Shown here piece after piece: positions 14,243-60,012 of a stretch of DNA of 64,000 nt. The translations under genes were made by a program, and so were the position numbers. The DNA lies in contig NZ_CP119559.1 in the NCBI RefSeq assembly GCF_029278565.1, positions 372,001 through 436,000 of the forward strand. Direction: 5' to 3'. Every line of letters begins with the position of its first letter. The stretch's first letter is position 1. The notes beneath the pieces are model-generated. The model searched no databases. It had not been told where the DNA came from and saw nothing but the letters and a program-made list of their open reading frames with translations. The DNA is from Haloarcula halophila. Its GTDB lineage: Archaea > Halobacteriota > Halobacteria > Halobacteriales > Haloarculaceae.

Positions 14243-14243
14243 C

Positions 14244-16208: not shown

Positions 16209-16209
16209 G

Positions 16210-17973
16210 TCAGACCAGTTCCGCTACTGCGTCACGGTCCAGCAGTTCGATCACGTCCTCCGGGTTCCGGTCGTACTCCCAGATGATCGCCTGGAACGAC
16301 TCGTAGTCGGAGATGTCCTCCTCGACCATGTATCGCAACAACCGCTCCCGTCTGGAGAGTTCCAGTTCCAGCCGTGGTTCGTCCCAGCCGTTCATGTACA
16401 TGATCTCGCGGAGTTTCTTCGATTTCTGTGCCCCCCGGAAGCTATCCGTCGACGGGTTCCACTCGTAGATATCACGGACCCCCGTCGACTCGCCGTCACC
16501 GCGTTCCAGTTCGGAGATGCCGACGTTTCGCCTGACGCGACGGTCCCCGACGAAGATCTGCTGTTGGATCGCCGTGATATCCAGTTCCCGCACCATCTGT
16601 TCGGGCACCGACAGCGGCGGGTTCTGCAACCGTGAGAGGACGGTCGCAGTCGAGTCAGCGTGCATCGTCGTGTACGCCGCGTGGCCCGTCGCCATCGCCT
16701 GGAAGAACGACAGCGCGACCTGCCGCTCGGTCCGGATCTCGCCGACCAGGAGGTACTCCGGACGCTGTCGCAGGGCGGCTTCCAGCAGTTTGTACATCCC
16801 GATGTCCCCGCTTCCGGACGCCTGGCCCTCCCGAGTCACGCTCTGAATCCAGTTCTCGTGGGGGAGCGTGATCTCGCGTGTGTCCTCGATAGAGATGACC
16901 TTGTTCTTCTCCGGGATGAACATCGAGATCGCGTTCAACGAGGTCGTCTTGCCGGACGCCGTCCCGCCGGCGAACAACAGCGAGAGGTTGTTCTGGATCG
17001 CCATCCAGAAGTAGGTCATCGTCTCCACGGAGAAGGTCCCGAACTGGATCAGGTCGATCGGCGTCAGCGGCACGTCCGAGAACTGCCGGATCGTGAAGTT
17101 CGACCCGCGGGAACTGACTTCGGTCCCGAGCGTCAGTTGGATCCGGGAGCCGTTCGGCAGGCTGGCGTCGACCATCGGGTCGGCCACGGAGACGTGCTTG
17201 TCGGACCGCTGTGCGAGCCGGACGACGAGCGAGTTCAGCCGGTCCGCCGAAAACGAGATGTTGGTCCGCATGTCCCGATACTCCCGGTGGTAGACGTAGA
17301 CCGGGATGTCGGTCCCGTCACAGGAGATGTCTTCGAGGTTCCGGTCGGCGAGCAGCGGACTGATCCGGTCGTACCCCAGCAGGTCCCGTTCGATGTAGTA
17401 TCTGATCTTGTGCAGCGAGCCCGGGTCCGCACCCCGGGCGTACCGACTCAACAGCGTATCGAGTTCCGTCGTCAACCGCTGGGTTCGGTCGGTCTCGCCG
17501 GGCCGGACGTGCATCAGGATGTCCCGCAAGTCGACCATGATGTCCTCCTGGACGTACCGCTCGAACTCCGACAGCGTCGGCTCGACGACGTGGTACTGGA
17601 TATCGCCGCCGTCGTCGAGAATCGCGACGTACGCGAACGGTTCGTCGACCCAGTACCGGTCGATCTCTTCGACCCCCTCGCGGTACGTGAAATCGAAAAA
17701 CTCCGTCTCCAGGAACCCCTCGGATGGCGCAGGCGCGAAATCCCCGTCGTACGCTTCGAAGTACGCTTTCAGGTCGCCGACGACCGTCTGCTGTGGCTCC
17801 GGTGGTGGCTCCGTGACCGGATCGAACTGTTCGATGTTCTCGTCCGGCCGGTCACGACCCGCATCGAGCGGTTCGTCATCCGGCTGGGGAATGTCGGCGT
17901 CCTCGTCGATCCGGGTGGCCCAGTCGGCAGCCTCCGAAGGGTCCCCGTCTCGGTCAGTCTCCGGGCCGGACAT
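16210..17973 (-). CDS. pilB: Type II/IV secretion system ATPase (PilB/VirB11-like)
   Basis: 587 aa. The N-terminal 110 residues are acidic and probably disordered. The core has Walker A FAGGTASGKTTSLNAI, the Asp box region SIEDTREITL, Walker B-like YLLVGEIRTE and the His box TMHADSTATVLSRL, all typical of GspE/VirB11 ATPases of archaeal pili. This family powers pilin assembly or DNA/protein secretion in the cytoplasm against the membrane platform. It is the first gene of the operon. Its start lies about 30 bp after a TTTTAC box, so the message is probably leaderless. Confidence 0.94.
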   Translation of the reverse strand: MSGPETDRDGDPSEAADWATRIDEDADIPQPDDEPLDAGRDRPDENIEQFDPVTEPPPEPQQTVVGDLKAYFEAYDGDFAPAPSEGFLETEFFDFTYREGVEEIDRYWVDEPFAYVAILDDGGDIQYHVVEPTLSEFERYVQEDIMVDLRDILMHVRPGETDRTQRLTTELDTLLSRYARGADPGSLHKIRYYIERDLLGYDRISPLLADRNLEDISCDGTDIPVYVYHREYRDMRTNISFSADRLNSLVVRLAQRSDKHVSVADPMVDASLPNGSRIQLTLGTEVSSRGSNFTIRQFSDVPLTPIDLIQFGTFSVETMTYFWMAIQNNLSLLFAGGTASGKTTSLNAISMFIPEKNKVISIEDTREITLPHENWIQSVTREGQASGSGDIGMYKLLEAALRQRPEYLLVGEIRTERQVALSFFQAMATGHAAYTTMHADSTATVLSRLQNPPLSVPEQMVRELDITAIQQQIFVGDRRVRRNVGISELERGDGESTGVRDIYEWNPSTDSFRGAQKSKKLREIMYMNGWDEPRLELELSRRERLLRYMVEEDISDYESFQAIIWEYDRNPEDVIELLDRDAVAELV

Positions 17974-39982: not shown

Positions 39983-40056
39983 GGGCCGGTAGCTCAGTCT
40001 GGCAGAGCGACGGCCTCTTAAGCCGTCGGTCGAGGGTTCAAATCCCTTCCGGCCCG
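39983..40056 (+). tRNA. trnK: tRNA-Lys(CTT)
   Basis: Full cloverleaf of 74 nt. Acceptor GGGCCGG pairs with CCGGCCC, discriminator G. The anticodon stem GACGGC/GCCGTC holds the loop CTCTTAA with anticodon CTT. The T arm is GAGGG-TTCAAAT-CCCTT. CCA is not encoded. No intron. The 3' 28 nt of the region recur 116 bp downstream. Confidence 0.95.
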
Positions 40057-40178
40057 CTTTTGCGACGAACGTTTCGTGCGGAGCAGAGCGGCTACGAAGC
40101 GGGTTTGAACCAGAGAGGTCGCGCACAGCGGAGCGAGCACGTCCGACCGTGGTTCAAATCCCTTCCGGCCCGCTTTTG
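40035..40178 (+). repeat. Duplicated tRNA-Lys 3' end (integration-scar candidate)
   Basis: A perfect 28-bp direct repeat covers the T arm and acceptor end of tRNA-Lys plus the following CTTTTG. The copies are 40035-40062 (inside the tRNA) and 40151-40178. The 88 bp between them contain no gene, but do hold a near-inverted match of the T arm (GGGTTTGAACCA at about 40100-40111). Duplication of a tRNA 3' end is what site-specific integration leaves behind, so this may be the remains of an element that decayed to almost nothing. Confidence 0.6.
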
Positions 40179-44227: not shown

Positions 44228-44408
44228 GGGGTCGTGGCCTAGTCCGGGAAGGCGGCTGACTCCAGAGGCCACGTGCCTGGGACGAGACTCTAAGGGCTGA
44301 TATACTGAGCGGCCGGCTGATCACCGGTTCGCGACGATGACCCTCTGGAGTTCCGAGGCACAGGACGGAGATATCAGCCGATCGGGGGTTCAAATCCCTC
44401 CGACCCCA
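44228..44408 (+). tRNA. trnW: tRNA-Trp(CCA) with intron
   Basis: Exon 1 is 44228-44265, exon 2 is 44373-44408. Acceptor GGGGTCG pairs with CGACCCC, discriminator A. The anticodon stem GCTGA/TCAGC encloses CTCCAG-A with anticodon CCA at 44262-44264. The T arm is GGGGG-TTCAAAT-CCCTC. The intron after position 37 is flanked by a bulge-helix-bulge: CTCC pairs with GGAG (44368-44371 region) between two 3-nt bulges, each cut after the second base. The integrated element begins at the 3' end of this gene. Confidence 0.95.
44266..44372 (+). ncRNA. tRNA-Trp intron acting as box C/D methylation guide
   Basis: The intron carries two antisense elements. CTCTGGAG (44343-44350) pairs with CTCCAGAG around the anticodon; the base five nucleotides before the box D-like CCGA pairs with C34 (44262). 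GGCTGATAT (44295-44303) pairs with ATATCAGCC; the base five before box D' CTGA (44305-44308) pairs with U39 (44374). GATGA (44336-44340) is a box C-type element; the other C box is degenerate (GACGAGA). In haloarchaea this intron is known to guide 2'-O-methylation of C34 and U39 of its own pre-tRNA, and the register here fits exactly. Confidence 0.9.
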
Positions 44409-44410
44409 TA

Positions 44411-47580: not shown

Positions 47581-47915
47581 CGATCACGCCCGACCAGGAG
47601 CCGGCGGCGACGCAACTTTCCGTACTGGAACCGGACGTGTTGCCCTACGACGACACGGCGCTCTGTCCGATCTGTAGCCAGCGTGTCGACGACATCGGCA
47701 CCCCTGCGGTTCCGGTGGAGTTCTTGGCTGATCCGGCCGCCGTCGACGGTGACCAAGCCCCAGTCTACGCATACGTCTGTGGCCGCCATCGCGGTCGTGA
47801 CGTGGTCCTGCCGCTGCCAATGGCACTGGCCCCGGACGTAGCGGTCGGACTCTCGGCCCGCGTCGAGGGCGAGACGCGTCCTGTTGCGGTGCCGGAACCG
47901 GAGGTGCATCGCTGA
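47577..47915 (+). CDS. Small zinc-site protein (112 aa)
   Basis: GTG at 47577 in a GTGA overlap. One ribbon half is CPICSQRV (about 30-33), the other is VCGRHRGRD (Cys and His, about 68-71). The remaining sequence is strand-rich. It overlaps the following ATG by 1 bp. Confidence 0.6.
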   Translation: MTITPDQEPAATQLSVLEPDVLPYDDTALCPICSQRVDDIGTPAVPVEFLADPAAVDGDQAPVYAYVCGRHRGRDVVLPLPMALAPDVAVGLSARVEGETRPVAVPEPEVHR

Positions 47916-49654
47916 TGGCGAGTCTGACGCCAACGGAGGCCGGCACGCTGTCGACGCCCGGCCCGGACCTGGGCGCGATCGAGGACGCCGGAGACGGCGC
48001 GGCCGGCGAGTGGGATTCCCTGGACTACCCGGACCCGATCGACCATGGCCACGGCCTGGAAATGGTCGTCAACGACCTCGACGACGGCGAGGACTTCGCG
48101 TACCGTCGGCTGTTCCACGGCTGGCGCGAGCACGTCGCGGACGCGGAGAACGAGCCCTACGTGCTCGTCGAGGACGTACACGAGTGGTTCGACTGGTTGC
48201 ACGACGAGTATCCCGCCCACCTGGTGCTCTCCTCGAAGCCGTGGAAGGTCGGGACCGAGGCCGACGGCCAGAGGATCACCGGGAGTCGGCGCTACGAGTA
48301 CTCGATCCAGGTGATGCGCTACGATCCGGAGTCAGACACCCTCGCGGCGAATCACGAGAAATCTCTGCGGGCGCCCGTCAGTTGCCAGACCTGGGTCCAG
48401 CCACAGAACGAGGATCTGGTCTACAAGAGCAACGACCCGCTGATCTGCCAGTACGGCGAGGGCACGAAGTTCCGCACGCAGACGACCTATGCGGGCTCGG
48501 CGGAGACGATAGCCCGGACGGTCCAGGTCGTCAACGCCGCGATGGACGCGCTCGACCAGGATAGGCCGGACTGGAGTCGGATGAACCGCGAGTCCTGGCG
48601 TGTCTGGAAAGGCGAGGTCCACCACCGGATCGACGAGAGTCTGATGGACGTTGTCGCGAACAAGCTCCGCAGTGCGCGCACCCTCGTCGAGTACGGCGGC
48701 GACGGTGACGCCAGCGGTGGCGGGCAGTACGCTGGCGGCCAGCACGTCGAGGAGCGTGTCGTCTCGGATATGTGGCATCGGATCGGCTTCGCCGGTTACG
48801 CCGATCGGGACGACTACAACCTCGGGCTGAAGGTCTACCGTGTCGGCGGGAACCCAGCCGACGAGCGCCTGCGGCATCCGAAGCTCGAAGCGTTCTTCGG
48901 CGGCACCGACGACGGGACGACGCTGCCCCACGCCGACGAGTGGGCCGCACTCCGGGCCACGCTCCGGCAGCTCGTCTCGACGTTCGCGATCCGGAGCGGT
49001 GTCGCCCTGGGCGATCTCCGCGAGGACGACTACTACCAGCCGATGGAGCGCGACCAGATCGACGTGATCGTGCCCAAGGGCTGGCGCCAGGCGATGGCCG
49101 AAGCCAACGAGGAACGGGAGCGCCGTATCCTCAAGACCACCTACGAGTCGCTGTCCCAGGCCCGCTGGGACGTGCTCTGGACGGTCGCGACGACGAAAGG
49201 CTGTGAGTACGACACGCTGGTCGAGCTTACCGGATACTCGCGGGACTACGTGCGCGAGATCGTCCGCGACCTCGAAGAGAAGGACGTGTTGCACCGGACG
49301 ACCTACCCGCGTGTCGTCGTCTACCACAACGAGGAGCTACGGCTGAACGCGATCGAGGCGCTTCAACAGGTCCACCCCGACCGTGCCCTGGACGACATCC
49401 GGGCAGACGCCGACGAGCGTCGCGAGGAACGGCGCACGCAGCGCGAAGACGACAACGAGGACAGTGACGGGGCCGACTCGGCGACCGATGAGAGCGGCGA
49501 CGAGACGGGTAGCGACGACAGCCCGACCTGGGTCTCGGTCGCCGACCTGGACTACTCCGCCGCGGACGTGGGTCGGTACCTGGAGCGCGGCGAGATCGAG
49601 CCCGACGCCGCGAAGGTGAACGTCGATCGCCACGACTGGCTGATACTCCGGTAG
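47915..49654 (+). CDS. Large element protein with winged-helix-like segment (579 aa)
   Basis: Last and largest gene of the plus-strand module; ATG at 47915 after GGAGGTG. The first 400 residues form an unfamiliar alpha/beta domain with the dense segment HLVLSSKPWKVGTEADGQRI and an Asp/Gly-rich loop. Residues about 408-475 look like a winged helix (ARWDVLWTVATTKGCEYDTL, VELTGYSRDYVREIVRDLEE), so DNA binding is likely. The C-terminus (about 490-579) is a disordered acidic linker followed by a short domain. It may regulate or initiate replication of the element; a name such as DUF7845 comes to mind but I cannot confirm it. Confidence 0.65.
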   Translation: MASLTPTEAGTLSTPGPDLGAIEDAGDGAAGEWDSLDYPDPIDHGHGLEMVVNDLDDGEDFAYRRLFHGWREHVADAENEPYVLVEDVHEWFDWLHDEYPAHLVLSSKPWKVGTEADGQRITGSRRYEYSIQVMRYDPESDTLAANHEKSLRAPVSCQTWVQPQNEDLVYKSNDPLICQYGEGTKFRTQTTYAGSAETIARTVQVVNAAMDALDQDRPDWSRMNRESWRVWKGEVHHRIDESLMDVVANKLRSARTLVEYGGDGDASGGGQYAGGQHVEERVVSDMWHRIGFAGYADRDDYNLGLKVYRVGGNPADERLRHPKLEAFFGGTDDGTTLPHADEWAALRATLRQLVSTFAIRSGVALGDLREDDYYQPMERDQIDVIVPKGWRQAMAEANEERERRILKTTYESLSQARWDVLWTVATTKGCEYDTLVELTGYSRDYVREIVRDLEEKDVLHRTTYPRVVVYHNEELRLNAIEALQQVHPDRALDDIRADADERREERRTQREDDNEDSDGADSATDESGDETGSDDSPTWVSVADLDYSAADVGRYLERGEIEPDAAKVNVDRHDWLILR

Positions 49655-50175
49655 CCTGGGGCGAGAGTCCCACGGGCGTGCCGGATCGATAGCGACAGCG
49701 CTGTTCTGTGACGCCGTTTTTCTCCGTTCGTTTCACTCTCGTTAGGTAACTCTGCTGGCTGGTTTTCGTTTCGTCGGTCACTTCGGCGGATGCATTGGTG
49801 TCGGCCTCGATCCGCGCCAGTTCCTGGCCAGTTTCTCGGTGGCGGTGGTCGGCCGGTTCCGGCCGCAGCCGTCCGCTCTCACGCCCTCAGCGGGGCGTAG
49901 CGGGTTCGGCCCGGTGTCGGCGGTCCCCACATACCCCTACGGTAGTTGCCCCTAAGGGGCCAGTCCAATTGCGCGGCTCGCATAGCGCTCGCCGCGCTCC
50001 CGCAGTCGGTTGGTCGGCCGGTTTCTGGACTGACGACTGCGAGAGGTTCTGAACCGCAGGATACCGGCACTGGGTCAAACGGGGCGATCATACCCCAGAT
50101 GGCCTTAGGGTAAGTCAACAGATTTGATACGGTTATCAACTGACATGGCGTTCATGCTGAGTACAGAGGCTGGTT
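49655..50175. other. Non-coding core of the element with palindromes
   Basis: No convincing gene in 520 bp between the convergent 579-aa gene and the protease gene. It holds GCCCCTAAGGGGC (49948-49960, 6-bp arms around A), GGTTCTGAACC (50045-50055, 5-bp arms around T) and several C-rich runs just before the first palindrome. From about 50,100 it becomes AT-rich. Transcription from both sides converges here. It could contain the origin of the element; this is a guess from position only. Confidence 0.35.
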
Positions 50176-51051
50176 TCAGATATATTGCCGAATAATATCC
50201 ATCATGCCTTGGCCACCAGATGCTACACCGATACCCATCTGAAACGTATTCATCACTGTGTCAAGAAGTGTTCGTGCCATTTCTGCTTGGATTTTACTTA
50301 CCAAAATAGACGCCTCTTGCAAGTCAAAACGCAAGAGAACATCATCTTCCCGTTGAGATAACTCCACATCTAACCCATATCCTTCTAAAATATCTTTCTC
50401 GTAAACAGCATCCTCAACTGTGTCGTATACTAAGAATCCGTTCTTGTGGCTTCCAGAAATCTCACTTGTCACATGAAATAGGTTCTCAAGCCGATGAATT
50501 TGATCATCCCATCGTTCAAGTTGTTGCTCGAAATTCCCTGCGCTTGCTGAAACAACACCTACTACTTGACCAGTTTCCTGCTCAATGACCGGCCCACCGC
50601 TGTGACCAGAGTTGAATAAGCCATCAACTTCAAAGAAGTGGCCACCACCATCGTCAAAACTGCCGGATGCAACCGGCCCCCAACCGAACCGCTGACGATC
50701 AATTTTTGATTCACCTATTAGCCGGGCATATCCTGACCAAACGACCTCTGTTCCGATAATTGGGATTTCTGGGCTGAGCGATAATGACTCAACATCATCA
50801 GGACGCTCATCCGCCTCTAATACAGCCAAATCAGAACCTTGGTCTTGTTCAGTCACCTGTACCACTACATCGCTATCACCCTCAGTTACGATAGTGAACT
50901 TATCTCTGTGAATAGCAGTTACAACATGATTCGCAGTAAGTAGGTATCTATCACCTATCCAAAATGCAGTCCCCAGTTTTTTGTTTGCCACATCCACGCG
51001 ACAGGTTGCAGCACGAATTTCTGGGATTCTATTGCTTCGTTTATGTCCCAT
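50176..51051 (-). CDS. Trypsin-like serine protease in an AT-rich island
   Basis: 291 aa from the ATG at 51049-51051. The triad is complete: His in LTANHVVTAI (about 43), Asp in GSDLAVLEAD (about 82) and Ser in NSGHSGGPVIEQ (about 151). There is no signal peptide or membrane segment, so it should act in the cytoplasm, unusual for a trypsin-like enzyme. The C-terminal 90 residues (DVELSQREDDVLLRFDLQEA) form a separate helical and strand domain. Codon use is AT-rich, clearly different from all neighbours, indicating recent transfer. Cytoplasmic trypsin-like proteases are frequent in anti-phage and conflict systems, which is a possible role. Confidence 0.82.
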   Translation of the reverse strand: MGHKRSNRIPEIRAATCRVDVANKKLGTAFWIGDRYLLTANHVVTAIHRDKFTIVTEGDSDVVVQVTEQDQGSDLAVLEADERPDDVESLSLSPEIPIIGTEVVWSGYARLIGESKIDRQRFGWGPVASGSFDDGGGHFFEVDGLFNSGHSGGPVIEQETGQVVGVVSASAGNFEQQLERWDDQIHRLENLFHVTSEISGSHKNGFLVYDTVEDAVYEKDILEGYGLDVELSQREDDVLLRFDLQEASILVSKIQAEMARTLLDTVMNTFQMGIGVASGGQGMMDIIRQYI

Positions 51052-51170
51052 TGTGTTTGTTAGTAGATGTCTCAATCACTCATAGCTATCCCTGGCGAGT
51101 TCTGAAGATGCGGGCTGTACATAGCTGCCCCACCGGAATAGATCACCCACCAGAAATCCTCTGTAACCAG

Positions 51171-51329
51171 CTACTCAATTTCTTCAACCAGCCGTTCAGC
51201 ACGTTTCTCTCCGATCCCGTCGATCCACTCGAAGTCAGCGGCGTCGGCGACGGTGCGTTTGAGCCGCGGGAGTTGGACCACGAGCATGGTCGCGAGGCCG
51301 GCCATGAGGCCGACCGAGGGATCGGCCAT
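51171..51329 (-). CDS. TM plus helix-hairpin-helix microprotein (52 aa)
   Basis: Starts ATG at 51327-51329, 2 bp after the stop of the 723-aa surface protein, so it is the last gene of the operon. Residues 6-20 (VGLMAGLATMLVVQL) form one hydrophobic helix; residues 33-52 (FEWIDGIGEKRAERLVEEIE) match a helix-hairpin-helix (I-x-G-I-G-x-x-x-A-x-x-L), the module used for DNA or protein contact. A membrane anchor joined to an HhH suggests tethering DNA or a nucleoprotein at the membrane. Confidence 0.6.
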   Translation of the reverse strand: MADPSVGLMAGLATMLVVQLPRLKRTVADAADFEWIDGIGEKRAERLVEEIE

Positions 51330-51331
51330 CG

Positions 51332-53503
51332 TCAGGGTGCGCCAGCGTTGCCGGCGCCGCCAGCGCCACCGCCACCCTGATAGCGCCGGTACAGCGCCAG
51401 GCCGATCGCGCCGACGGCTGGGACGCCGATCAGGAGCGGCGAAGCACCCGAGCCAGCATCGTCGCCGATGATGGCGCCACCACCGGCACCGCCGCCGACG
51501 GCAGTCCCGTTGGTCGGTGTCGGATCGGTCGTGTTCCAGCCCGAATCCGCCGGTGGCAGGTCGTCACGACACTCCTGGGTGCCGTTGGCGACCGTCCCGC
51601 CACTGCTGTTGTAGGCTTTGAACTGGACCGTTGCCGTGTCACAGATGTCGCCGCTGTCGATCGGCGTTGCCGTGGTGAACTCGTCGCCCTCCGTCGGCGT
51701 CGACGGATCGAGGAACCCATCGTCTTCGGTCGGCGTGGGCGTGGCACCCGGCGCGAGCGTCGGCGTGGGTTCAGATGGGTCGGGCTCCGGCGTTGGCTCA
51801 GGGGCGTCAGGGAACTCATCAATCGCGATGCAGCTCGACCAGTAGCCGATTGGCTCGACGAACGTCTTGTCGATCGTGACATCTGGTGAGCCTTGTGCGT
51901 CGGTTAGTCCTGCCGTCGTGCTAATCCGCGTCGTCTCGCGGTCGCTGTCGTAGTACTCGATGTAGAGGCCGGGTGAGCCATCCGGCATCCTACAGCGCCG
52001 CGTGGCCCAGGCGTAGCCCTCCTTGTAGGGATAGTCACGGGTCGTTACGGGTGTCGGCGTGGCCGTCGCTGGCGTGCTCCCGTCGATTGGTGCCTGGGTC
52101 GGCGTGGGTTCGGGCGTGATCGGGGTCGGCGTCACGAACTCGTCGTCGGCCGGCGTTGGCGTTGGCTCGGGCGTGATCGGCGCTTGCGTTGGCGTGGGTT
52201 CAGGCGTGATGAACCCGCCGTCGGCCGGCGTCGGCGTGGGTTCGGGCGTGATCGGCTCCTGGGTCGGTGTTGGCGTCGGCTCGGTCTGGTTCGTGATGTA
52301 CTTCGACGGGCCGGTCGGCGTAATCCGGATCACGTCGGGCGTGTTCTGTGTGTACTGCCAGCCACGCCAGGACAGTGATGAGCCCGGCGCTTTCACTTCG
52401 ACGCGGTACTTCGAGCCGAGTTTCAGGTTCGTGGTGACCTCCTCGTCGCTGCCGAAGGTCTCGCTGGCGACCGTCTCGTAGGTGTAGGGCGGTCGCAGGC
52501 TGGAGCGTTTCTCGACGACCAGTTTTGTCTGGTCGGCCGGGAAGAGGTCTCGCTGGGTCTGGTCGTCCAGCACGAACGTCGTCTGATCGGACTGGGGCAT
52601 CGTGAGGTTCAGCGTGGTCGCGCCGCTGACAGTCGTCGTCTTGCTGGCGGTCTTGTAGCCGGGTTTCGAGACTTCGACGGTTGCGTCGGTGCCATCCGTG
52701 ACAGTGACCGAGTAGTCGCCACCTGCATCGGTCGTGGTGGTGGCGATTGTTGCACCCGTGCTGTCGGTGACGGTCACGTCGGCCGCACCGACGACGTTCC
52801 CCGAGCCGTCGGTGACCGTCCCCGATAGTGTGTAGCTCGGTGTGTAATTGGTCCCTGCCTCGTCTATGTGATTGGTGGCTAAGTTGATACTGTCAACACT
52901 CGACCCAGTCGCTTCCTGGCCCGCTTTTAGCGTTCTGCTGATTTGTGGGCTTGACGGCTTGCTGTTCCCGGCGGGCCAGATGTAGACGTTGATGCTCCTA
53001 TCCGGTTGTATCTCGATATAGAGATTATGCCAGTTGGCCGGATTCACGCCCGTGTATTCGCTAAAATCATCAGGGTAATTATAACTCCCATCAGAATTGT
53101 CTGTCATTCGATACGAACCGCCACTTCCTGTATCGGCGATCAACTCGAAGTAATTACCGTTCCCTAAATTGACCTTGAGTGATCCCGAATCCGTGCCAGC
53201 ATCGCCGTTGGTGTCGAATTTCGCCTTGTAGTAGAACACCCCTTCGCTACTGGACCAGTCAAACGACATTCCAGAATACATTTTATTGTCGTTTGAAATC
53301 TGGTACGAATAGCTATCTTCAAACGACGACGAGACGACGCTGCCGCCGGACCAGCCCTGGCTAGAGCCATCCTCGAAGTCATCCCAGTGTCCGAATGAAC
53401 TCTCGCCAAAGCCAGGGGTATCTGCACTGGCAACGCCGTGCAATCCAGACACCGACGTTAGTGCTATCACAACTACGAGCGAAACTGCTACAGTCCGTTT
53501 CAC
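51332..53503 (-). CDS. Giant surface protein A: ConA-like domain, CnaB-like domain, Thr/Pro stalk, C-terminal anchor
   Basis: 723 aa starting at GTG 53501-53503. Signal peptide 1-27 (VVVIALTSVSGLHGVASA). Residues about 35-215 look like a concanavalin/LamG-type beta-sandwich (WDDFEDGSSQGWSGGSVVSS at the front). Residues about 222-305 are a carboxypeptidase-regulatory/CnaB-like domain (SGTVTDGSGNVVGAADVTVT). Thr/Pro/Glu stalks lie at about 410-490 and 575-635. A hydrophobic helix (ASPLLIGVPAVGAIGLALYRRY) near the C-terminus is the anchor. Four Cys in the distal domain may form disulfides. The N-terminal domain is AT-rich compared with the rest. A spike or adhesin role is inferred. Confidence 0.75.
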   Translation of the reverse strand: MKRTVAVSLVVVIALTSVSGLHGVASADTPGFGESSFGHWDDFEDGSSQGWSGGSVVSSSFEDSYSYQISNDNKMYSGMSFDWSSSEGVFYYKAKFDTNGDAGTDSGSLKVNLGNGNYFELIADTGSGGSYRMTDNSDGSYNYPDDFSEYTGVNPANWHNLYIEIQPDRSINVYIWPAGNSKPSSPQISRTLKAGQEATGSSVDSINLATNHIDEAGTNYTPSYTLSGTVTDGSGNVVGAADVTVTDSTGATIATTTTDAGGDYSVTVTDGTDATVEVSKPGYKTASKTTTVSGATTLNLTMPQSDQTTFVLDDQTQRDLFPADQTKLVVEKRSSLRPPYTYETVASETFGSDEEVTTNLKLGSKYRVEVKAPGSSLSWRGWQYTQNTPDVIRITPTGPSKYITNQTEPTPTPTQEPITPEPTPTPADGGFITPEPTPTQAPITPEPTPTPADDEFVTPTPITPEPTPTQAPIDGSTPATATPTPVTTRDYPYKEGYAWATRRCRMPDGSPGLYIEYYDSDRETTRISTTAGLTDAQGSPDVTIDKTFVEPIGYWSSCIAIDEFPDAPEPTPEPDPSEPTPTLAPGATPTPTEDDGFLDPSTPTEGDEFTTATPIDSGDICDTATVQFKAYNSSGGTVANGTQECRDDLPPADSGWNTTDPTPTNGTAVGGGAGGGAIIGDDAGSGASPLLIGVPAVGAIGLALYRRYQGGGGAGGAGNAGAP
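52055..52300 (-). repeat. Thr/Pro stalk repeat in surface protein A
   Basis: The unit ITPEPTPTPAD-(G/E/D) and its variant ITPEPTPTQAP recur four to five times in tandem, about 11-15 residues each. At DNA level the repeats keep near-identical codons, so slippage or recombination could change stalk length. Confidence 0.7.
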
Positions 53504-53934
53504 GCCACCACCCCCGGATACGGGACGGGAGCAGTCACACCGATGCCGTGCAACTCGGCCAAGACAGTCAGATTCCAGAGAGTGAGCCAGGCACCCCGGA
53601 CCACCAGGATCGCAAGCAGCCCAACCTGGAATGGTGTGGCGTCGATCCGCAGGCGCTCGCCGACGTGACCGAGAAACAGCCAGGCGACGGCGGCGAACGA
53701 CAGCGCCAGGAGCTTCAGCCCGACCAGGCCGATCAGCCCGACCTGATCGATCGCGGCCGTCGCGATCGCTGCGGACTCGACCCCGCCGCTGGCGAGAACG
53801 AGCGCCGTCGTCGCCGTGTCGCCGATCCCGTAGAGGACGACAACGGCGACGGCGAACAGCCGATGCAACGCGCTCAGTCGGAACCGATACCTCACAGCCA
53901 TGCCCGCGTAGGGCAGTCGCTCAGTGTCTGTCAT
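53500..53934 (-). CDS. Four-helix membrane protein (144 aa)
   Basis: ATG at 53932-53934 after GGAGG, in an overlap with the stop of the upstream zinc-finger microprotein; its own stop overlaps the GTG of surface protein A. Helices lie at about 22-42, 50-68, 70-92 and 105-128. Basic N-terminus (RYRFRLSALHRL) places it in the cytoplasm. No motif recognised. Confidence 0.65.
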   Translation of the reverse strand: MTDTERLPYAGMAVRYRFRLSALHRLFAVAVVVLYGIGDTATTALVLASGGVESAAIATAAIDQVGLIGLVGLKLLALSFAAVAWLFLGHVGERLRIDATPFQVGLLAILVVRGAWLTLWNLTVLAELHGIGVTAPVPYPGVVA

Positions 53935-54035
53935 GCGTACCTCCGCCTGTCGCGCCCACAGGCCGGGCAGAATCGGCACTCGTCGTCTCCGGCCGCACAG
54001 CGCTGGCAGGCGACGAGATTCGTTGCTTGGCTCAC
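53931..54035 (-). CDS. 34-aa zinc-finger microprotein
   Basis: GTG at 54033-54035, preceded by GGAGGTG; it overlaps the gene before it by 4 bp and the gene after it by 4 bp. The whole protein is VSQATNLVACQRCAAGDDEC plus FCPACGRDRRRYA, with five Cys in CxxC-x6-CxxC spacing. It is the size of a single zinc knuckle. Confidence 0.55.
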   Translation of the reverse strand: MSQATNLVACQRCAAGDDECRFCPACGRDRRRYA

Positions 54036-54319
54036 AGTGCCACCTCCGCGATCGCGGTCGCCACGTCGACGAGCGCGCTCAACAGATCGGTCAGCGTCGT
54101 CAGCGACACGTCGAGCGTGACACCAGGGATCAGGCCCAGGAACGCCGCGAACAGGATCACACCGATCAGGCCGGCGACCTTCGCGGCAAAGCCCAGTGTC
54201 CCGAGAAATGCCATGATCGAGCGGCCGTGATACAGCGCGACCAGGCCCGACGCGAACACGGCGATCGAGCCCGGCAGGCCGATGGCTTTGAGCGCGTCAC
54301 CGAGCACGAGGACGGTCAC
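54032..54319 (-). CDS. Small membrane protein (95 aa)
   Basis: GTG start at 54317-54319 overlapping the preceding stop (GTGA). Two or three hydrophobic helices (about 14-32, 42-66, 78-95), no conserved motif. Its position between other small membrane proteins suggests a subunit of the same membrane assembly. Confidence 0.6.
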   Translation of the reverse strand: MTVLVLGDALKAIGLPGSIAVFASGLVALYHGRSIMAFLGTLGFAAKVAGLIGVILFAAFLGLIPGVTLDVSLTTLTDLLSALVDVATAIAEVAL

Positions 54320-54906
54320 TGGTCATCACCGTCCTCGACCTGGCCACGGACGACGATTCGGCGCTGGCCATCATCGTCCGACCCCAGCGCACGCCACAGG
54401 AGTGCGATCGTGCCGACGGCGACGATCGGGCCGACGTTCGAGTTGACGACGGTGCCAATCACGGGCTCGCCCAGTGCCGACAGGCCGATCACGACGGTTG
54501 CGGTCCCAACCAGAGCGAACAACCGGAACGAGTACTGATCCAGTGCCTGGAGGATCAGATACGTCGCGACCAACTCCAAGGCGATCACGAGCTGGAGGCC
54601 AGTGCCCTCTGGCAGCGCGAACGCGCCCGAGAGGATCAGGACCAGCAGCGTCGCGACGCCAGTCAACAGGAGCACCGGCGTTGAGGTGAGAAACGCCAGC
54701 GTCGAGGCGATGAATCCTCCGTCGCTGGCCGTGCTCGACGAGCCGCCGAACGATGGCAGGAAACCAAGCACGTCGACCCTGGTGAACGTGTCCAGCGCGG
54801 CGAGTGCGAGCGCGGCCACGACCGCCACGAGTACGAGCCCGCCTGCACTCCCGGTCGTGGACGCACCCGAGCCCGTGGGCGTCGCGAACTGCGCGGCCAC
54901 GCTCAC
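54316..54906 (-). CDS. Membrane protein with five helices (196 aa)
   Basis: The longest frame starts at ATG 54966, but the GTG at 54904-54906 overlaps the stop of the frame 54903-55112 in the same GTGA manner as most joins in this operon. The sequence from there, VSVAAQFATPTGSGASTTGS, then shows helices at about 23-44, 62-80, 85-105, 112-130 and 135-160. Ends in a charged cytoplasmic tail. Function unknown. Confidence 0.55.
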   Translation of the reverse strand: MSVAAQFATPTGSGASTTGSAGGLVLVAVVAALALAALDTFTRVDVLGFLPSFGGSSSTASDGGFIASTLAFLTSTPVLLLTGVATLLVLILSGAFALPEGTGLQLVIALELVATYLILQALDQYSFRLFALVGTATVVIGLSALGEPVIGTVVNSNVGPIVAVGTIALLWRALGSDDDGQRRIVVRGQVEDGDDQ

Positions 54907-55112
54907 GGGCACCCCTCCGCGGACTCGCGCACAGTCCCCGCGGCTGGCCGGGCGCGCATTATCCATGCACTCGCTCGCGCACTGACTGCGGTCTGTGGGT
55001 GCTCACGCGCGTGTGATAGCTGGGGGTCCTGCTGACTCGCAACTCGACACGCGCGCGTATGAACTGCCGATCGGCGCCGCGAACCCGAACCGCCGGATGG
55101 CACCGGGATCAT
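54903..55112 (-). CDS. Possible 69-aa basic protein between ATPase and membrane genes
   Basis: ATG at 55110-55112 overlaps the ATPase stop (ATGA) and its stop overlaps the next GTG (GTGA), so it fits the operon perfectly by structure. The sequence is rich in Arg and Ser (GGSGSRRRSAVHTRACRVAS) and lacks the acidic bias of the neighbours, which argues against it. Either a real small basic protein or an untranslated spacer. Confidence 0.4.
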   Translation of the reverse strand: MIPVPSGGSGSRRRSAVHTRACRVASQQDPQLSHAREHPQTAVSARASAWIMRARPAAGTVRESAEGCP

Positions 55113-56605
55113 CCTTCCACCTCTCGACCGGCGCCGTCGACGCCGTCGCCCAGTCCGATCTCCTGTTTCGGCAGCTTGGCGACGATCGTCTCCTCGCCGC
55201 TTTCATCGCGCATCCGAACCAGATAGTACTCCTCGGTCGGCTCGATCCCGCCGAAGGTCAGGCCGTCTTTCGGCGAGGCCAGCGCGTCGACCTCCTGGCC
55301 GGTCTGGACGTCGAGGTAGCCGTCGCCTGGGTCTTTGACATACAGGCGATCCTCGTCGCCTTTCCGCCAGCGGCTGAAGATCGCCGAGTCGTACTGAAGC
55401 GTCGGACCAGTCTCCTGGTCGTCGTCCTCGGTGTCGGGCTCGCCGAGTTCGAGCTGGAGCCAGCGTCCCTCGTCGGCGTCGAGTTGCGGGATATCCTTCC
55501 AGCGATAGAGCGTGAACTCCTTCTGGTTGTACATCAACGCCGTCCCGACTTTTCGTGAACTCATCACGTCCGTGTGCATCGGGACGGTGCCGTAGCCGAC
55601 CGGCACCGAGTTCCGGTAGGAGGTCCGAGGGTTGGGCGTCTCGTCGGGCATATCGACCCGCCACATCACCTCCCGGCGGATCTTGTGGTGTAGGTTCTCT
55701 TCGTAGTGGGCCGACCAATAGATCGACAGCTTGGCACGGCGGCTGTCGGCGTAGACCGACCGGAGCAGACTGAGCTTCTTGAATGTCCGGTGCTCGTCGT
55801 CTTCCGCGTCCTCGGGCGTCAGGTCGCCAGCCTCGTCGAAGATCACCGACAGCCAGGAGTAGGTGGGGCGGGCCTCGACACAGGCCAGCATGAACGCGTA
55901 CCACCAGTGGGAGAGTGGTGTCCCGGTCTCGTCGCCCATCGTCCGCCACTCGGGGACGAACGGCAGCGTCTCGGCGACGCGGTTGGTGTCGGCAGTCAGT
56001 TCCTCACAGCCGGCGAACGACGGGTCCGGGTAGACGACGTTGAACGTCCCGCTGGGGTGGGCCTCCAGTTGGGCCAGCAGGTCAGCCGGGTCCGCGTAGG
56101 TCTCGACCGACCGAACGACCTCGTCAAGATCGGCGTCGTCGGCGACGAACTGCTCGCCTTCCGATTCCCAGGACGGATCGGGATCGGCGTGTTCGGGCAG
56201 CCACAGCGTCGCCCACTCCCGGAGCGGCAGCCACTCCGAGCGTTCCGGTGAGCCACGCCAGACGACCTGTTCGCCCTTCGGGCCGTTCTCTTCGAGTAGG
56301 CGGATCGTCCAGTGGAGGTTGTCGGTGGACTTACCGCACCCACGTTCGCCGATCTTGAGCCAGTCGGTCCCGCCGGCGCTCTTAGTCTTGTCGGCGGGTT
56401 TCTCGTGGACCAGGCAGTCCGGGTAGACCTCGAAGTCGAACGCCTCGGCGTCGAACTCCGGGATTCCGAAGCGCATCCGCATCTCGTAGCCATCAGTCCA
56501 CCAGTCGGGGGCGTCATCCTCATCGTCGAGGATCGCGCGCCCTTGTTGCGTGCCGGTACCCCAGTCGTGCCCCTCTCTCGGGGTCCAGGTTTTCGATTCA
56601 GCCAT
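55109..56605 (-). CDS. P-loop ATPase of the membrane operon (498 aa)
   Basis: Walker A is GERGCGKST (86-94), Walker B is WLSVIFDEAG with Asp257-Glu258 (about 251-260). The N-terminal 60 residues contain a Trp-rich segment (DAPDWWTDGYEMRMRFGIPEF). The C-terminal 150 residues are strand-rich and acidic. It has no membrane helix. The placement next to membrane proteins recalls the VirB4/HerA/FtsK or viral packaging type; in pleolipoviruses a single ATPase gene likewise follows membrane-protein genes. I cannot assign it to a named family. It overlaps the preceding gene by 8 bp. Confidence 0.72.
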   Translation of the reverse strand: MAESKTWTPREGHDWGTGTQQGRAILDDEDDAPDWWTDGYEMRMRFGIPEFDAEAFDFEVYPDCLVHEKPADKTKSAGGTDWLKIGERGCGKSTDNLHWTIRLLEENGPKGEQVVWRGSPERSEWLPLREWATLWLPEHADPDPSWESEGEQFVADDADLDEVVRSVETYADPADLLAQLEAHPSGTFNVVYPDPSFAGCEELTADTNRVAETLPFVPEWRTMGDETGTPLSHWWYAFMLACVEARPTYSWLSVIFDEAGDLTPEDAEDDEHRTFKKLSLLRSVYADSRRAKLSIYWSAHYEENLHHKIRREVMWRVDMPDETPNPRTSYRNSVPVGYGTVPMHTDVMSSRKVGTALMYNQKEFTLYRWKDIPQLDADEGRWLQLELGEPDTEDDDQETGPTLQYDSAIFSRWRKGDEDRLYVKDPGDGYLDVQTGQEVDALASPKDGLTFGGIEPTEEYYLVRMRDESGEETIVAKLPKQEIGLGDGVDGAGREVEG

Positions 56606-57386
56606 GTGGTGCAGTGAGTTCCGTGGTCGTCTGTTTCGCCAGTTCGCCGGCTTCCAGGCGCTCGACGCCCTCGACGAACGCTGGCAGCAGTTCGACGATC
56701 GCGAAGTGTTCCCGCCAGCGCCGGGCCGACTCCTGGTCGACGCCGGTCTTCAGGAGATGTTTCGTGGCGACTGGGTCGCGATCCAGCCGGCTGGCGAGGT
56801 CGTCGGAGACGGCGCCGTTGCTGGGCTTGTCCAGCCAGTGGATCCAGTCGAACAGTGCGTCTCTGTTGTCGAATCCACCCCACAGGCGACCGAGCGCGTG
56901 CGATTGCTGGCGATCAAGGTTCTCGAAGCCCGGTCGCATCGCGACGTGATCCTGGTCGAGCGGGTCGATATCACCGAGATCGAACTGGTCGTGATCGATG
57001 TACTCGCCGGCCGTTTTCCGGAGGTCGTTGTAGGCGCGATTGCACGCCGGCAGGACGACCTGGCTCTCCAGCCGGCGGCGATACTCCCGAGCCTCGTCGG
57101 GATCGAGCGGGTCGTCGGACCAGGTGTGACGGGCGCCGGAGGTGATCGTCGCCGACAACAGCGTTCGGTCCCGACCGAGGTCGACGGCCGGCCAGTCGTC
57201 CCCGATGTGGCCAAGCGTCCGGACAGCGGCCCGCTGGTACCAGTTGATGAGTTCCCGGCGGTTCGGGAACCCCGCTCGGAGTGCGAACCCGCCGCCAACC
57301 TCCTGAGCGGTGTCCTGGTCGATCAGTGCCCGCTGGTCCTGCTGGAGCTTCGGGAGCGCCGGCCGGGCCGGTTCGGCCTCAGTCAT
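56598..57386 (-). CDS. Helical element protein, ATPase partner (262 aa)
   Basis: ATG at 57384-57386 after GAGGAGGGC, overlapping the surface protein B stop by 8 bp; its own end overlaps the ATPase start by 8 bp. The protein is soluble, acidic and helical, with WYQRAAVRTLGHIGDDWPAV and LGRLWGGFDNRDALFDWIHWLDKPS as the most structured parts. The tight coupling to the ATPase suggests a partner, possibly an adaptor. No family recognised. Confidence 0.65.
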   Translation of the reverse strand: MTEAEPARPALPKLQQDQRALIDQDTAQEVGGGFALRAGFPNRRELINWYQRAAVRTLGHIGDDWPAVDLGRDRTLLSATITSGARHTWSDDPLDPDEAREYRRRLESQVVLPACNRAYNDLRKTAGEYIDHDQFDLGDIDPLDQDHVAMRPGFENLDRQQSHALGRLWGGFDNRDALFDWIHWLDKPSNGAVSDDLASRLDRDPVATKHLLKTGVDQESARRWREHFAIVELLPAFVEGVERLEAGELAKQTTTELTAPHG

Positions 57387-60012
57387 CGGCCGTGCCCTCC
57401 TCGTCGTGGCCGTTGGTCCGGGTCGAGTCCTCGACGTCGACGCCGAGAATTTCCTTGTTGATCTTGCCAGTGATCGTCTCGTCGCGGTCTTGCTCGATCT
57501 CCTTGGCGTCCTGAGCGGTCGAGGCGCGTTCCTTGTGGACCTCTTGCCAGGCCTCTCGAAGCCCCTTCGCGTCGGCGTGGGCTGGCCCCTGTTTCGACAA
57601 CGTCGCCCGGGCACTGCGGTAGTGGATGGGGGCGGCCTGGAACTCGGCGTGGCCATCGCGGGCTTTCGCCGCCGCCGCAATGAATCCGGTACCGGCACCG
57701 ACGAGTGCAAGCGTCGTCCCGGCGCCGAACAGCCAGCCGCCGAGCAGCCACCCGGCAGCGCCGCCGATTCCAGTGACAGCCAGCAGGCGGACGTTCAGTT
57801 TCGAGAGGATGCGCTCTATCTGTCCGATATCGTCGTCGAGGTCGACATCCTCACGCAGTAGCTCCGGTTCGAACTCCCAGTGGGCGGGCGTCCAGTCCAG
57901 CGGTTCGTCAGCATCGGGATCGGCCAGGTAGACGTGATCGTCCGGCCCCTGGCGGATCTCGATGTCCGTCTTGAGCTTGCTGTCGTCGATCCGGGCCGGG
58001 TCGGCGAACAGGCGTGCCAGGAACGGCCGGATGCCGGACTTGATGAGGCCGAGGGTTCCGTCGTCTCGGCGCACCGTCTGGATGCGTGCCTTATCTCGGT
58101 AGAGGTGGTTCTGGACCTCCTCGCCGAGTGCGTCGGCCGCCTCGCCCAACTCGTCGCGAACGAACTCGTCGGTGCGCTTGCGTGGCCCCATCGTCTCCAG
58201 CATGGCGATCGCGGCGACCGCGACGATGATGCCGCCGAACACCTGCGGAAGTCTGGTGACGACCTGTGCCGTCTGGAAGTACGCCATCGTCGCGACCATG
58301 AACAGGCCGATTCCGACGACCAGTGCCCACCACATCGCGCCCTTGTCAGGCCCGCGTGCGGTGCGCTGGATAATCGACCGGACACCGACGGCACAGCCCA
58401 GCAGGCCCGGGATCGCGATGATGAGGATGTTCTGGGCCGCCCACACCCAGAGGTCGCCCTGGCTGTTGACGGTCGTTCCAGCCGCGGACTGGCTGGACTG
58501 ATGGCCGAATCGCCAGCGGGCGCCATCGATGGGTTGGCCGCCGTCAGAGAGCCACATCGTGGCCTCGTAGCGCTGGTCGAAGTGGCTTGGGAACGTGACG
58601 TTCGCCGTCGAGTAGCCCGTGCCGAGGCTGACATCGTAGACGCGTTCCGACTGGTTGCCAGCGACGGCGACCGTGCGGGTGCCGTTCTCGGTCTGGACCT
58701 GCCGGTCGACGGGTTGCCAGAACACGACGTGTAGCTGCACGTCACGCGTCTCGATTGACTCGCCGAAGCGCGTCGAGTACAACTGAATGTCATCGGTATG
58801 GATCGTGCTCCCAGGTTCGAGATACTGGAGTTGGTCGCTCAGTGGCCGCGCCGGCTCGTAGCGCACCGCCAGCGCGCCGGTCGAACCGAGCACACGGACA
58901 GACTGTGGTGCCGAGGCTGGTTGGCGACCACCGCGACGGAGTTGTTCGATCGAGTACGACCCAGCCGCTTGTGCGCCCGTGTTCGCGTTGGACCCTCCGG
59001 ATGCGGGGGTGGGTGTCGGCGTGGGCGTCGCGTCGCTGCTGGCGGCCGCGCCGGCTGGGACAGGTGTCGCGGTCGGCGTCGGCGTGTCGGTCGGCACCGA
59101 CTCCGGATAGGTCTGTGGCGTGGCCGTCGGCGTGGCTGTCGGCGTTGGCGTCTCGGTCGGCGTTGCCGTCGGGCCGACAACCTCGATGGTCTCCTCGGTC
59201 GTGTCGGTGTTGCCGTCGTCGTCGGTGACGGTCAGTTCTACCTCGTAGTCTCCGGCATCGTCGAACGAGGTGATCGTCGCTGCGCCGTAGTCCTCAATGC
59301 CGCCGTCGTCGTCGAGATCCCAGGCGTAGCTGGTGACCTGGCCGTCCGCGTCGAGTGAGTCGCTGGCGTCGAGTTCGACCGGCTCGTCGATGCCAACCTC
59401 GTCGTCATCCACGTCGATCCAGGCGTTGGGATCGGTGTCGCGATCGGGTCGTGGCGTCGGTTCGGGCGTGGGCGTTGGCGTCGGGGTCGCGGTCACCGTC
59501 GGCGTGGAGTCCCGAGTGGGCGTCGGCGTCGGATCTGGCTCCGATGCCGTCCGGGTAGGGGTAGGTGTTGGGGTTGGACTCGGGGTGGCCGTCGGCGTTG
59601 GCGTTGCGGTCGGCGTCGTCGTGCGGAACACGAACGTCTCGGTCGCGGTGGCGACGTTGCCGTCGCTGTCGGTCATGGTGAGCGTGATCGTGTTTGTTCC
59701 GGTCTCGACCAGCGACGGCGGCAGGCCGATCGTGATCGTCCGGCCGCCCGTGCTGACCGTCTCGCCGCCGGCCACGGGTGAGCCGTTGACCGACGCATCG
59801 ACGGTGACCGTCTCGTTGGGGAACTGCGGGTCGTCGACGGTCGCCGTGATCCCGCCGTAGTCGACGGCGTTGGCGAGGTCAGTGTAGGTGCCAGTCGGCC
59901 GGACGATGTTCGCTGACGGGTCCGAGGCGTCGGCCGCGACAGCCATCGATGCTGCCGGAATCGACAGGCTCAGTGCCAGCACGGCCAGGACGGCGATGCG
60001 ACCCCGGTCCAT
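57379..60012 (-). CDS. Giant surface protein B: two Thr/Pro stalks, PKD domain, multi-TM cytoplasmic module
   Basis: 877 aa. Signal peptide 1-27. Residues 28-130 form an Ig-like domain. Stalk 1 (131-190) is TP-rich. Residues about 195-278 are a PKD domain with SYAWDLDDDG and DYEVELTVTDDDGN. Stalk 2 (280-340) is TP-rich. Residues 350-520 are another extracellular domain. Membrane helices lie at about 525-546, 560-580 and 590-608. A cytoplasmic region (610-740) contains KTDIEIRQGPDDHVYLADPD. Two more helices (741-784) and a charged, coiled-coil-like tail (800-877) follow. This joins an outside stalk to an inside module in one protein, so it could couple the ATPase to the outside. Confidence 0.75.
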   Translation of the reverse strand: MDRGRIAVLAVLALSLSIPAASMAVAADASDPSANIVRPTGTYTDLANAVDYGGITATVDDPQFPNETVTVDASVNGSPVAGGETVSTGGRTITIGLPPSLVETGTNTITLTMTDSDGNVATATETFVFRTTTPTATPTPTATPSPTPTPTPTRTASEPDPTPTPTRDSTPTVTATPTPTPTPEPTPRPDRDTDPNAWIDVDDDEVGIDEPVELDASDSLDADGQVTSYAWDLDDDGGIEDYGAATITSFDDAGDYEVELTVTDDDGNTDTTEETIEVVGPTATPTETPTPTATPTATPQTYPESVPTDTPTPTATPVPAGAAASSDATPTPTPTPASGGSNANTGAQAAGSYSIEQLRRGGRQPASAPQSVRVLGSTGALAVRYEPARPLSDQLQYLEPGSTIHTDDIQLYSTRFGESIETRDVQLHVVFWQPVDRQVQTENGTRTVAVAGNQSERVYDVSLGTGYSTANVTFPSHFDQRYEATMWLSDGGQPIDGARWRFGHQSSQSAAGTTVNSQGDLWVWAAQNILIIAIPGLLGCAVGVRSIIQRTARGPDKGAMWWALVVGIGLFMVATMAYFQTAQVVTRLPQVFGGIIVAVAAIAMLETMGPRKRTDEFVRDELGEAADALGEEVQNHLYRDKARIQTVRRDDGTLGLIKSGIRPFLARLFADPARIDDSKLKTDIEIRQGPDDHVYLADPDADEPLDWTPAHWEFEPELLREDVDLDDDIGQIERILSKLNVRLLAVTGIGGAAGWLLGGWLFGAGTTLALVGAGTGFIAAAAKARDGHAEFQAAPIHYRSARATLSKQGPAHADAKGLREAWQEVHKERASTAQDAKEIEQDRDETITGKINKEILGVDVEDSTRTNGHDEEGTADD
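59000..59610 (-). repeat. Thr/Pro-rich low-complexity stalk repeats in surface protein B
   Basis: Two separate tracts of alternating Thr-Pro-(Ala/Thr) codons (about 59,420-59,620 and 58,990-59,170) encode stalks 1 and 2. They flank the PKD domain. Thr-rich stalks in haloarchaeal surface proteins are usually O-glycosylated. The DNA is repetitive enough for length variation. Confidence 0.65.

Follow-up and report, generated by a model that had tools for sequence, protein, structure and literature searches.

The window, i.e., the whole 64-kb stretch of DNA that was analysed, contains two convergent gene modules of an element associated with an intron-containing tRNA-Trp gene and, between them, a short AT-rich island that encodes a single serine protease. 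The relevant features are, in window coordinates:

44228 to 44408, plus strand: intron-containing tRNA-Trp(CCA), the integration target (ARAGORN with introns, Rfam)
44394 to 44409, plus strand: att repeat ATCCCTCCGACCCCAT, found again beyond the window at 77198 and 88950 (extended coordinates)
47915 to 49654, plus strand: conserved protein of 579 aa, the last of the plus-strand module (PHROG 15150, "transcriptional regulator")
49655 to 54031, no strand assigned: variable cargo slot between the convergent modules, occupied here by genes for the protease, for a membrane protein of 159 aa and for a secreted protein of 723 aa
50100 to 51190 (about 50.1-51.2 kb), no strand assigned: AT-rich island, consisting of one gene and short flanks
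50176 to 51051, minus strand: stand-alone serine protease of the trypsin/HtrA fold, 291 aa, ATG start, triad H42, D74 and S151
50179 to 50244, minus strand: strand (QMGIG) and helix that close the protease fold, residues 270-291 (model, structure alignment and HtrA comparison)
50245 to 50535, minus strand: family-specific alpha/beta insertion of about 97 residues, residues 173-269 (boundaries from both model and alignment)
51332 to 53503, minus strand: element-specific secreted protein of 723 aa with a carboxypeptidase-regulatory domain and a C-terminal TM segment
54032 to 54319, minus strand: small membrane protein, the conserved end of the structural module in sibling elements
55109 to 56605, minus strand: packaging-type ATPase, hallmark of the element family, with relatives in 69 of the 391 Halobacteria genomes sampled (E <= 1e-15)
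57379 to 60012, minus strand: PKD/membrane protein of 877 aa, part of the structural module

Since the repeat at the end of the tRNA-Trp gene recurs at extended coordinate 77198, the element is predicted to span about 44.4-77.2 kb (about 33 kb) and thus to run past the end of the window; an integrase-like ORF (75934-77139, recognised by eye) adjoins its right end. A second unit (extended coordinates 77198-88950), bounded by the same repeat, lies in tandem with the element and includes another AT-rich stretch at about 85.3-87.1 kb. Within the element itself, a further AT-rich gene (extended coordinates 66177-67100, L077 8178-9101; 44% GC, 307 aa) adjoins a tyrosine recombinase; its product has no Pfam match and shows membrane segments by eye. 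Outside the element, positions 40140-40178 carry an 87% copy of the end of tRNA-Lys (39983-40057), 116 bp downstream, which is perhaps an old attachment site. The pNG plasmids of Haloarcula also match the ATPase, as do, weakly, plasmids of Thermococcus, and the ATPase marks a widespread and apparently unnamed family of haloarchaeal elements. At 54316-54966, a protein of 216 aa matches only the C-terminal part of a large surface-type gene in one sibling element (L065). The surface-type protein therefore seems to have been cut to a C-terminal remnant in this element, with the unrelated 723-aa secreted protein encoded downstream, and a possible reading of the two is an exchange of surface proteins.

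The protease gene is the sole long gene between the convergent modules within 50100-51165, the stretch singled out in a preliminary description of this DNA. That description had placed about 1 kb of distinctly lower GC at the point where two operons converge, and both statements hold: the 876-bp gene has a GC content of 44.9% (GC3 36%), where the 97.8 kb of local sequence average 63.4% (z = -3.4), and is the lowest-GC stretch of its length in the window, and it lies between the plus-strand module, which stops at 49654, and a minus-strand module. The frame is free of stops for 299 codons, whereas shuffling the region 1000 times gave none longer than 218. Translation is assigned to the ATG at 51051, where the alignment with the relatives begins; a TTG 24 nt upstream is a possible alternative.

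Fifteen related elements have a module of ATPase, surface-type protein and small TM protein in common. In these siblings the ATPase gene is followed by one for a surface-type protein of about 900-1400 aa (all 15) and then by one for a small membrane protein (14 of 15 by profile), after which, sometimes after an MCM gene, a variable stretch faces the other module. This slot holds a membrane-protein gene in G246 (55% GC), an integrase and a 133-aa gene in G145 (45% GC), a 165-aa gene in G266 (42% GC), a GHKL-type ATPase gene together with an HNH-like one in G125 (55% GC), four genes in G112 (48-55% GC), several small genes in G244, an integrase in G269, a regulator and a nucleotidyltransferase in G049 (52-55% GC), and nothing in G332, G006 and G223, whereas it is not cleanly delimited in G377, G095, G078 and G039. 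Gene calls in the siblings are mechanical and small ORFs are uncertain. As for the slot occupants, the GHKL-type ATPase matches Pfam HATPase_c_3 (9e-12), and the nucleotidyltransferase matches DUF6036 (2.6e-6) and PADLOC AbiEii at just 0.07. In one sibling slot (L069, 4617-7414) the gene for a GHKL-type ATPase adjoins an HNH-like one (HNH by eye only), and the two are a candidate defence pair.

It is well supported that the protease is mobile-element cargo, because the sibling slots carry different, often AT-rich genes or none, i.e., genes come and go at one and the same position of elements that are otherwise syntenic. The view that the point of convergence is a place for cargo is thus borne out by the slot survey. 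The suggestion of a single-gene defence or toxin cargo stands as far as cargo is concerned; its defence or toxin part is not sustained by the profile evidence, as PADLOC matches come from the trypsin core only and no defence partner is adjacent.

A different use of the gene by the element has to be considered here. The protease gene lies on the same strand as the structural module, about 280 bp downstream of the gene for the 723-aa secreted protein, and this secreted protein and the 159-aa membrane protein are likewise element-specific, with no match in the siblings, so that the three could form a unit in which the protease processes a surface or structural protein of the element, or a host protein, and thereby aids formation of particles or vesicles or establishment of the element. 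A protease as a core component is known from the apHPV plasmids, which carry one of the S8 type (PMC10818511). However, the protease is matched in none of the 15 siblings, the loci of the protease relatives (L032, L033) have no matches to these structural genes, the protease has no signal peptide whereas the secreted protein would be exported, and the strong GC contrast indicates a separate acquisition. On balance, service to the element's own particles or establishment is unlikely.

In Pfam searches the 291-aa protein matches Trypsin_2 (1.6e-17) and Trypsin (5e-8), and residues H42, D74 and S151 are unchanged in both full-length relatives and in aligned haloarchaeal HtrA proteins. Together with a structure model that reaches Z scores of about 20 against Deg proteases, this points to the two-barrel trypsin fold (clan PA, S1). 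Hydropathy over the whole chain in windows of 19 residues detected neither a signal peptide nor a membrane helix (maximum Kyte-Doolittle value 0.8), and since the N-terminus is not hydrophobic, a cytoplasmic location is a fair inference. The calculated pI is 4.5, and values around 4.5 are usual for haloarchaeal cytosolic proteins. The early assignment as a trypsin-like protease with an intact His-Asp-Ser triad is therefore confirmed by Pfam and the invariant triad, and its cytoplasmic part agrees with the hydropathy. As Leu145 occupies the position six residues before the catalytic Ser, where Asp goes along with the Arg/Lys preference of trypsin, "trypsin-like" would describe the fold and not the specificity of this enzyme.

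The preliminary description had also proposed an extra C-terminal domain, and on this point the model leads to another view. It was built from 29 sequences (pLDDT 77, pTM 0.69) and supersedes a poor one from three sequences (pLDDT 54); it is moderate within the insertion and weak at residues 109-137, and the structural details taken from it are predictions. HtrA proteases close with a strand and a helix, of the type NIGFAIS..L..RVVPALI, shortly after the SGGP motif of the second barrel. The counterpart of NIGFAIS..VVPALI in the protease is formed by residues 270-291, and about 97 residues intervene, placed by the model between the last two strands of the barrel. They are modelled as helix 174-200, strand 206-209, helix 212-224, strands 229-234 and 237-242, and helix 244-269, after which the chain continues with strand 271-275 and helix 281-288. 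In VIA-align the model matches MucD, AlgW, DegS and DegP with Z of 18-20 over about 180 residues, and its residues up to 285-289 are matched to the end of the protease domain, PDZ-deleted DegS included (3lgt: 172 residues, model 1 to 289, chain 42 to 251). Because the end of the model coincides with the end of the protease domain, the segment of about 97 residues is, as modelled, inserted within the fold rather than appended to it as a C-terminal domain, and the chain finishes in a strand and a helix that belong to the fold itself. Alignment with HtrA proteins over the full length had put the last strand wrongly; the HtrA rows were then trimmed before that strand, and the modelled final strand is therefore not derived from them.

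Compared with Pfam and with PDB sequences, the insertion gave nothing convincing, and no sensor domain was recognised in the protease. A likeness to the DUF3343 fold, seen by eye, is without Pfam support and is not claimed. When the insertion alone was searched against 292 haloarchaeal genomes, nine genomes reached E <= 0.05, one of them its own; the other eight are no more than the chance expectation and were discarded as relatives, so that the segment is not found above chance elsewhere in this sample.

Some match to the protease occurs in 272 of the 391 sampled Halobacteria genomes, nearly always to the HtrA core (25-173) only. These widespread HtrA-like relatives, and a core that is structurally closest to MucD, DegS and DegP, would fit a quality-control or stress protease that has lost secretion and PDZ and persists as a neutral or mildly useful passenger. 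The protease has in common with the HtrA/Deg proteins (S1C: MucD, DegS, AlgW, DegP) the trypsin fold, the triad and the terminal strand and helix. In contrast to them, it lacks the export signal or membrane anchor of typical prokaryotic members, no C-terminal PDZ is found by Pfam, it carries the insertion before its last strand, and its family-specific and highly conserved cleft (DRQRFGWG, FFEVDGLFN) is unlike that of HtrA. Since the likeness stays within the core (about 25-173) and the distribution is so sporadic, a quality-control origin of this kind seems rather unlikely.

Full-length relatives are present in only two of the 391 sampled genomes besides its own, with 50% (G334) and 42-43% identity (G364, Halorubrum halophilum B8). 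A search of 170 genomes from the relatives' family yielded no others, and viral contigs, plasmids and phages yielded none; a scan of genome contigs gave no relatives with the single sequence and only Halorubrum halophilum B8 with the profile. The family is thus extremely sporadic, with three known members. Both relatives are AT-rich (46-47% GC), are situated near tyrosine integrases and begin without a signal peptide, and the situation that would have spoken against the early proposal, namely homologs confined to housekeeping contexts or secreted, did not arise. In Halorubrum halophilum (L033), an McrBC pair, consisting of McrC (PF10117, 9e-19; 13482-15263) and an McrB-like AAA_5 protein (2e-16; 15269-16492), is encoded about 3.5 kb from the relative, with a GIY-YIG gene closer, whereas related and apparently repeated ORFs of unknown kind flank the relative in G334. 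No neighbouring gene, and hence no partner gene or, as had been envisaged earlier, sensor gene, is common to the three loci, and the association with defence therefore hangs on one locus.

The same neighbourhoods bear on a role as toxin or addiction module that retains the element, or as a protease directed against host defence. Cargo on a mobile element with no evident housekeeping role would agree with this, and a protease could conceivably disable a host defence protein, but an antitoxin-like neighbour is found neither beside the gene nor in common among the relatives, and we regard this role as improbable.

Conservation is distributed unevenly along the protein. Cleft residues 97-172 are 68-75% identical to the relatives and insertion residues 173-269 only 24-29%, with invariant positions numbering 49 of 76 and 17 of 97, respectively (Fisher p = 3e-10). 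The conserved cleft suggests a conserved substrate. The divergence of the insertion would agree with a role in sensing or regulation, as it would with simple relaxed constraint. Other solitary haloarchaeal trypsin-fold proteins (L034 6731-7555, L035 6432-7178) end in a similar way after a shorter segment and are perhaps, which is suggestive at best, part of a wider class with this protease.

That intracellular trypsin-like proteases take part in prokaryotic conflict is in accordance with published systems. In bacteria they act in Hachiman, AVAST, Lamassu and DRT defence, where oligomerisation activates them and they then open a partner pro-nuclease whose gene adjoins that of the protease (PMC12799240). 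Trypsin-like peptidases occur as well in predicted bacterial conflict systems together with Trypco1/Trypco2 (PMC7159879). With LmuA, Avs1b, protease-HamA and RT-Protease XI the protease shares an intracellular trypsin-like core, and its PADLOC matches (RT-Protease_XI, LmuA 5.7e-10, Avs1b 8.6e-8), all on residues of about 11-173, appear to reflect this generic core alone. This shared fold could make it the partner of a pro-nuclease encoded elsewhere. In the published systems, however, the trypsins are fusion partners of a defence enzyme and have an MBL-fold nuclease encoded next to them (PMC12799240), whereas the protease is a solitary protein of 291 aa with its own fold end, in which profile matches stop at the core and no fusion to HamA, Avs1b STAND, LmuA or RT is seen. 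The nearest MBL-fold genes (PF00753) are situated about 47 kb away in its own genome and about 52 kb away in G334, with none listed on the G364 contig. Because there is neither a fusion nor a nearby MBL-fold gene, the protease is judged from sequence not to be a member of the nuclease-protease pairs, and a distant partner is very improbable. With the Trypco-associated trypsins it shares the peptidase type and a predicted conflict setting; Trypco1 is absent from the three host genomes, and none of the ternary-system genes of these systems was recognised near the protease.

As there is no fusion, no nearby MBL-fold gene and no Trypco1, a self-contained proteolytic effector is preferred. Our tentative proposal, to which we attach not quite an even chance, is that the protease is a rare, horizontally moving single-gene effector of conflict carried as cargo; a role in virus defence is plausible, if still short of even. 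The protease would be kept inactive until triggered, the fast-evolving insertion might sense a cue derived from infection or from a competitor, or control oligomerisation, and the conserved cleft, once active, would cut a fixed protein of host or invader. Cleavage would halt growth or the invader and thus shield the host and its element against a competing virus or element. The most specific form of this proposal, a one-protein archaeal immune system in which an invader triggers a trypsin-fold executioner through a rapidly evolving sensor in the last barrel loop so that it cuts one conserved cellular protein, would be a long shot. Known defence trypsins are fused to sensors and work via a partner nuclease; if the proposal is true, a solitary protease that carries its variable segment in the same chain would be simpler in design, and the few archaeal defence genes would gain a further member.

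The slot that carries the protease is a fixed exchange place for unrelated, often AT-rich genes in a common haloarchaeal element family, and its contents provide candidates for archaeal genes of defence or conflict, each of which can be tested individually. A similar organisation is known from the pR1SE-like haloarchaeal plasmids (apHPVs), in which a variable region lies between two conserved clusters and 16 of 38 plasmids have a defence system in the core or close to it; Haloterrigena and Halopiger are named as carriers of pR1SE-like proteins (PMC10818511). Membership among the apHPVs calls for homologs of five or more of pR1SE ORF6, 8, 17, 21, 23 and 24. The two families resemble each other in the packaging-type ATPase, the PKD/membrane proteins and the presence of variable genes or defence systems near the core. 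In contrast, the element proteins tested matched Haloarcula pNG-type plasmids and not plasmid records of Haloterrigena or Halopiger, and the element family described here therefore seems to be different from the pR1SE-like family despite the similar organisation.
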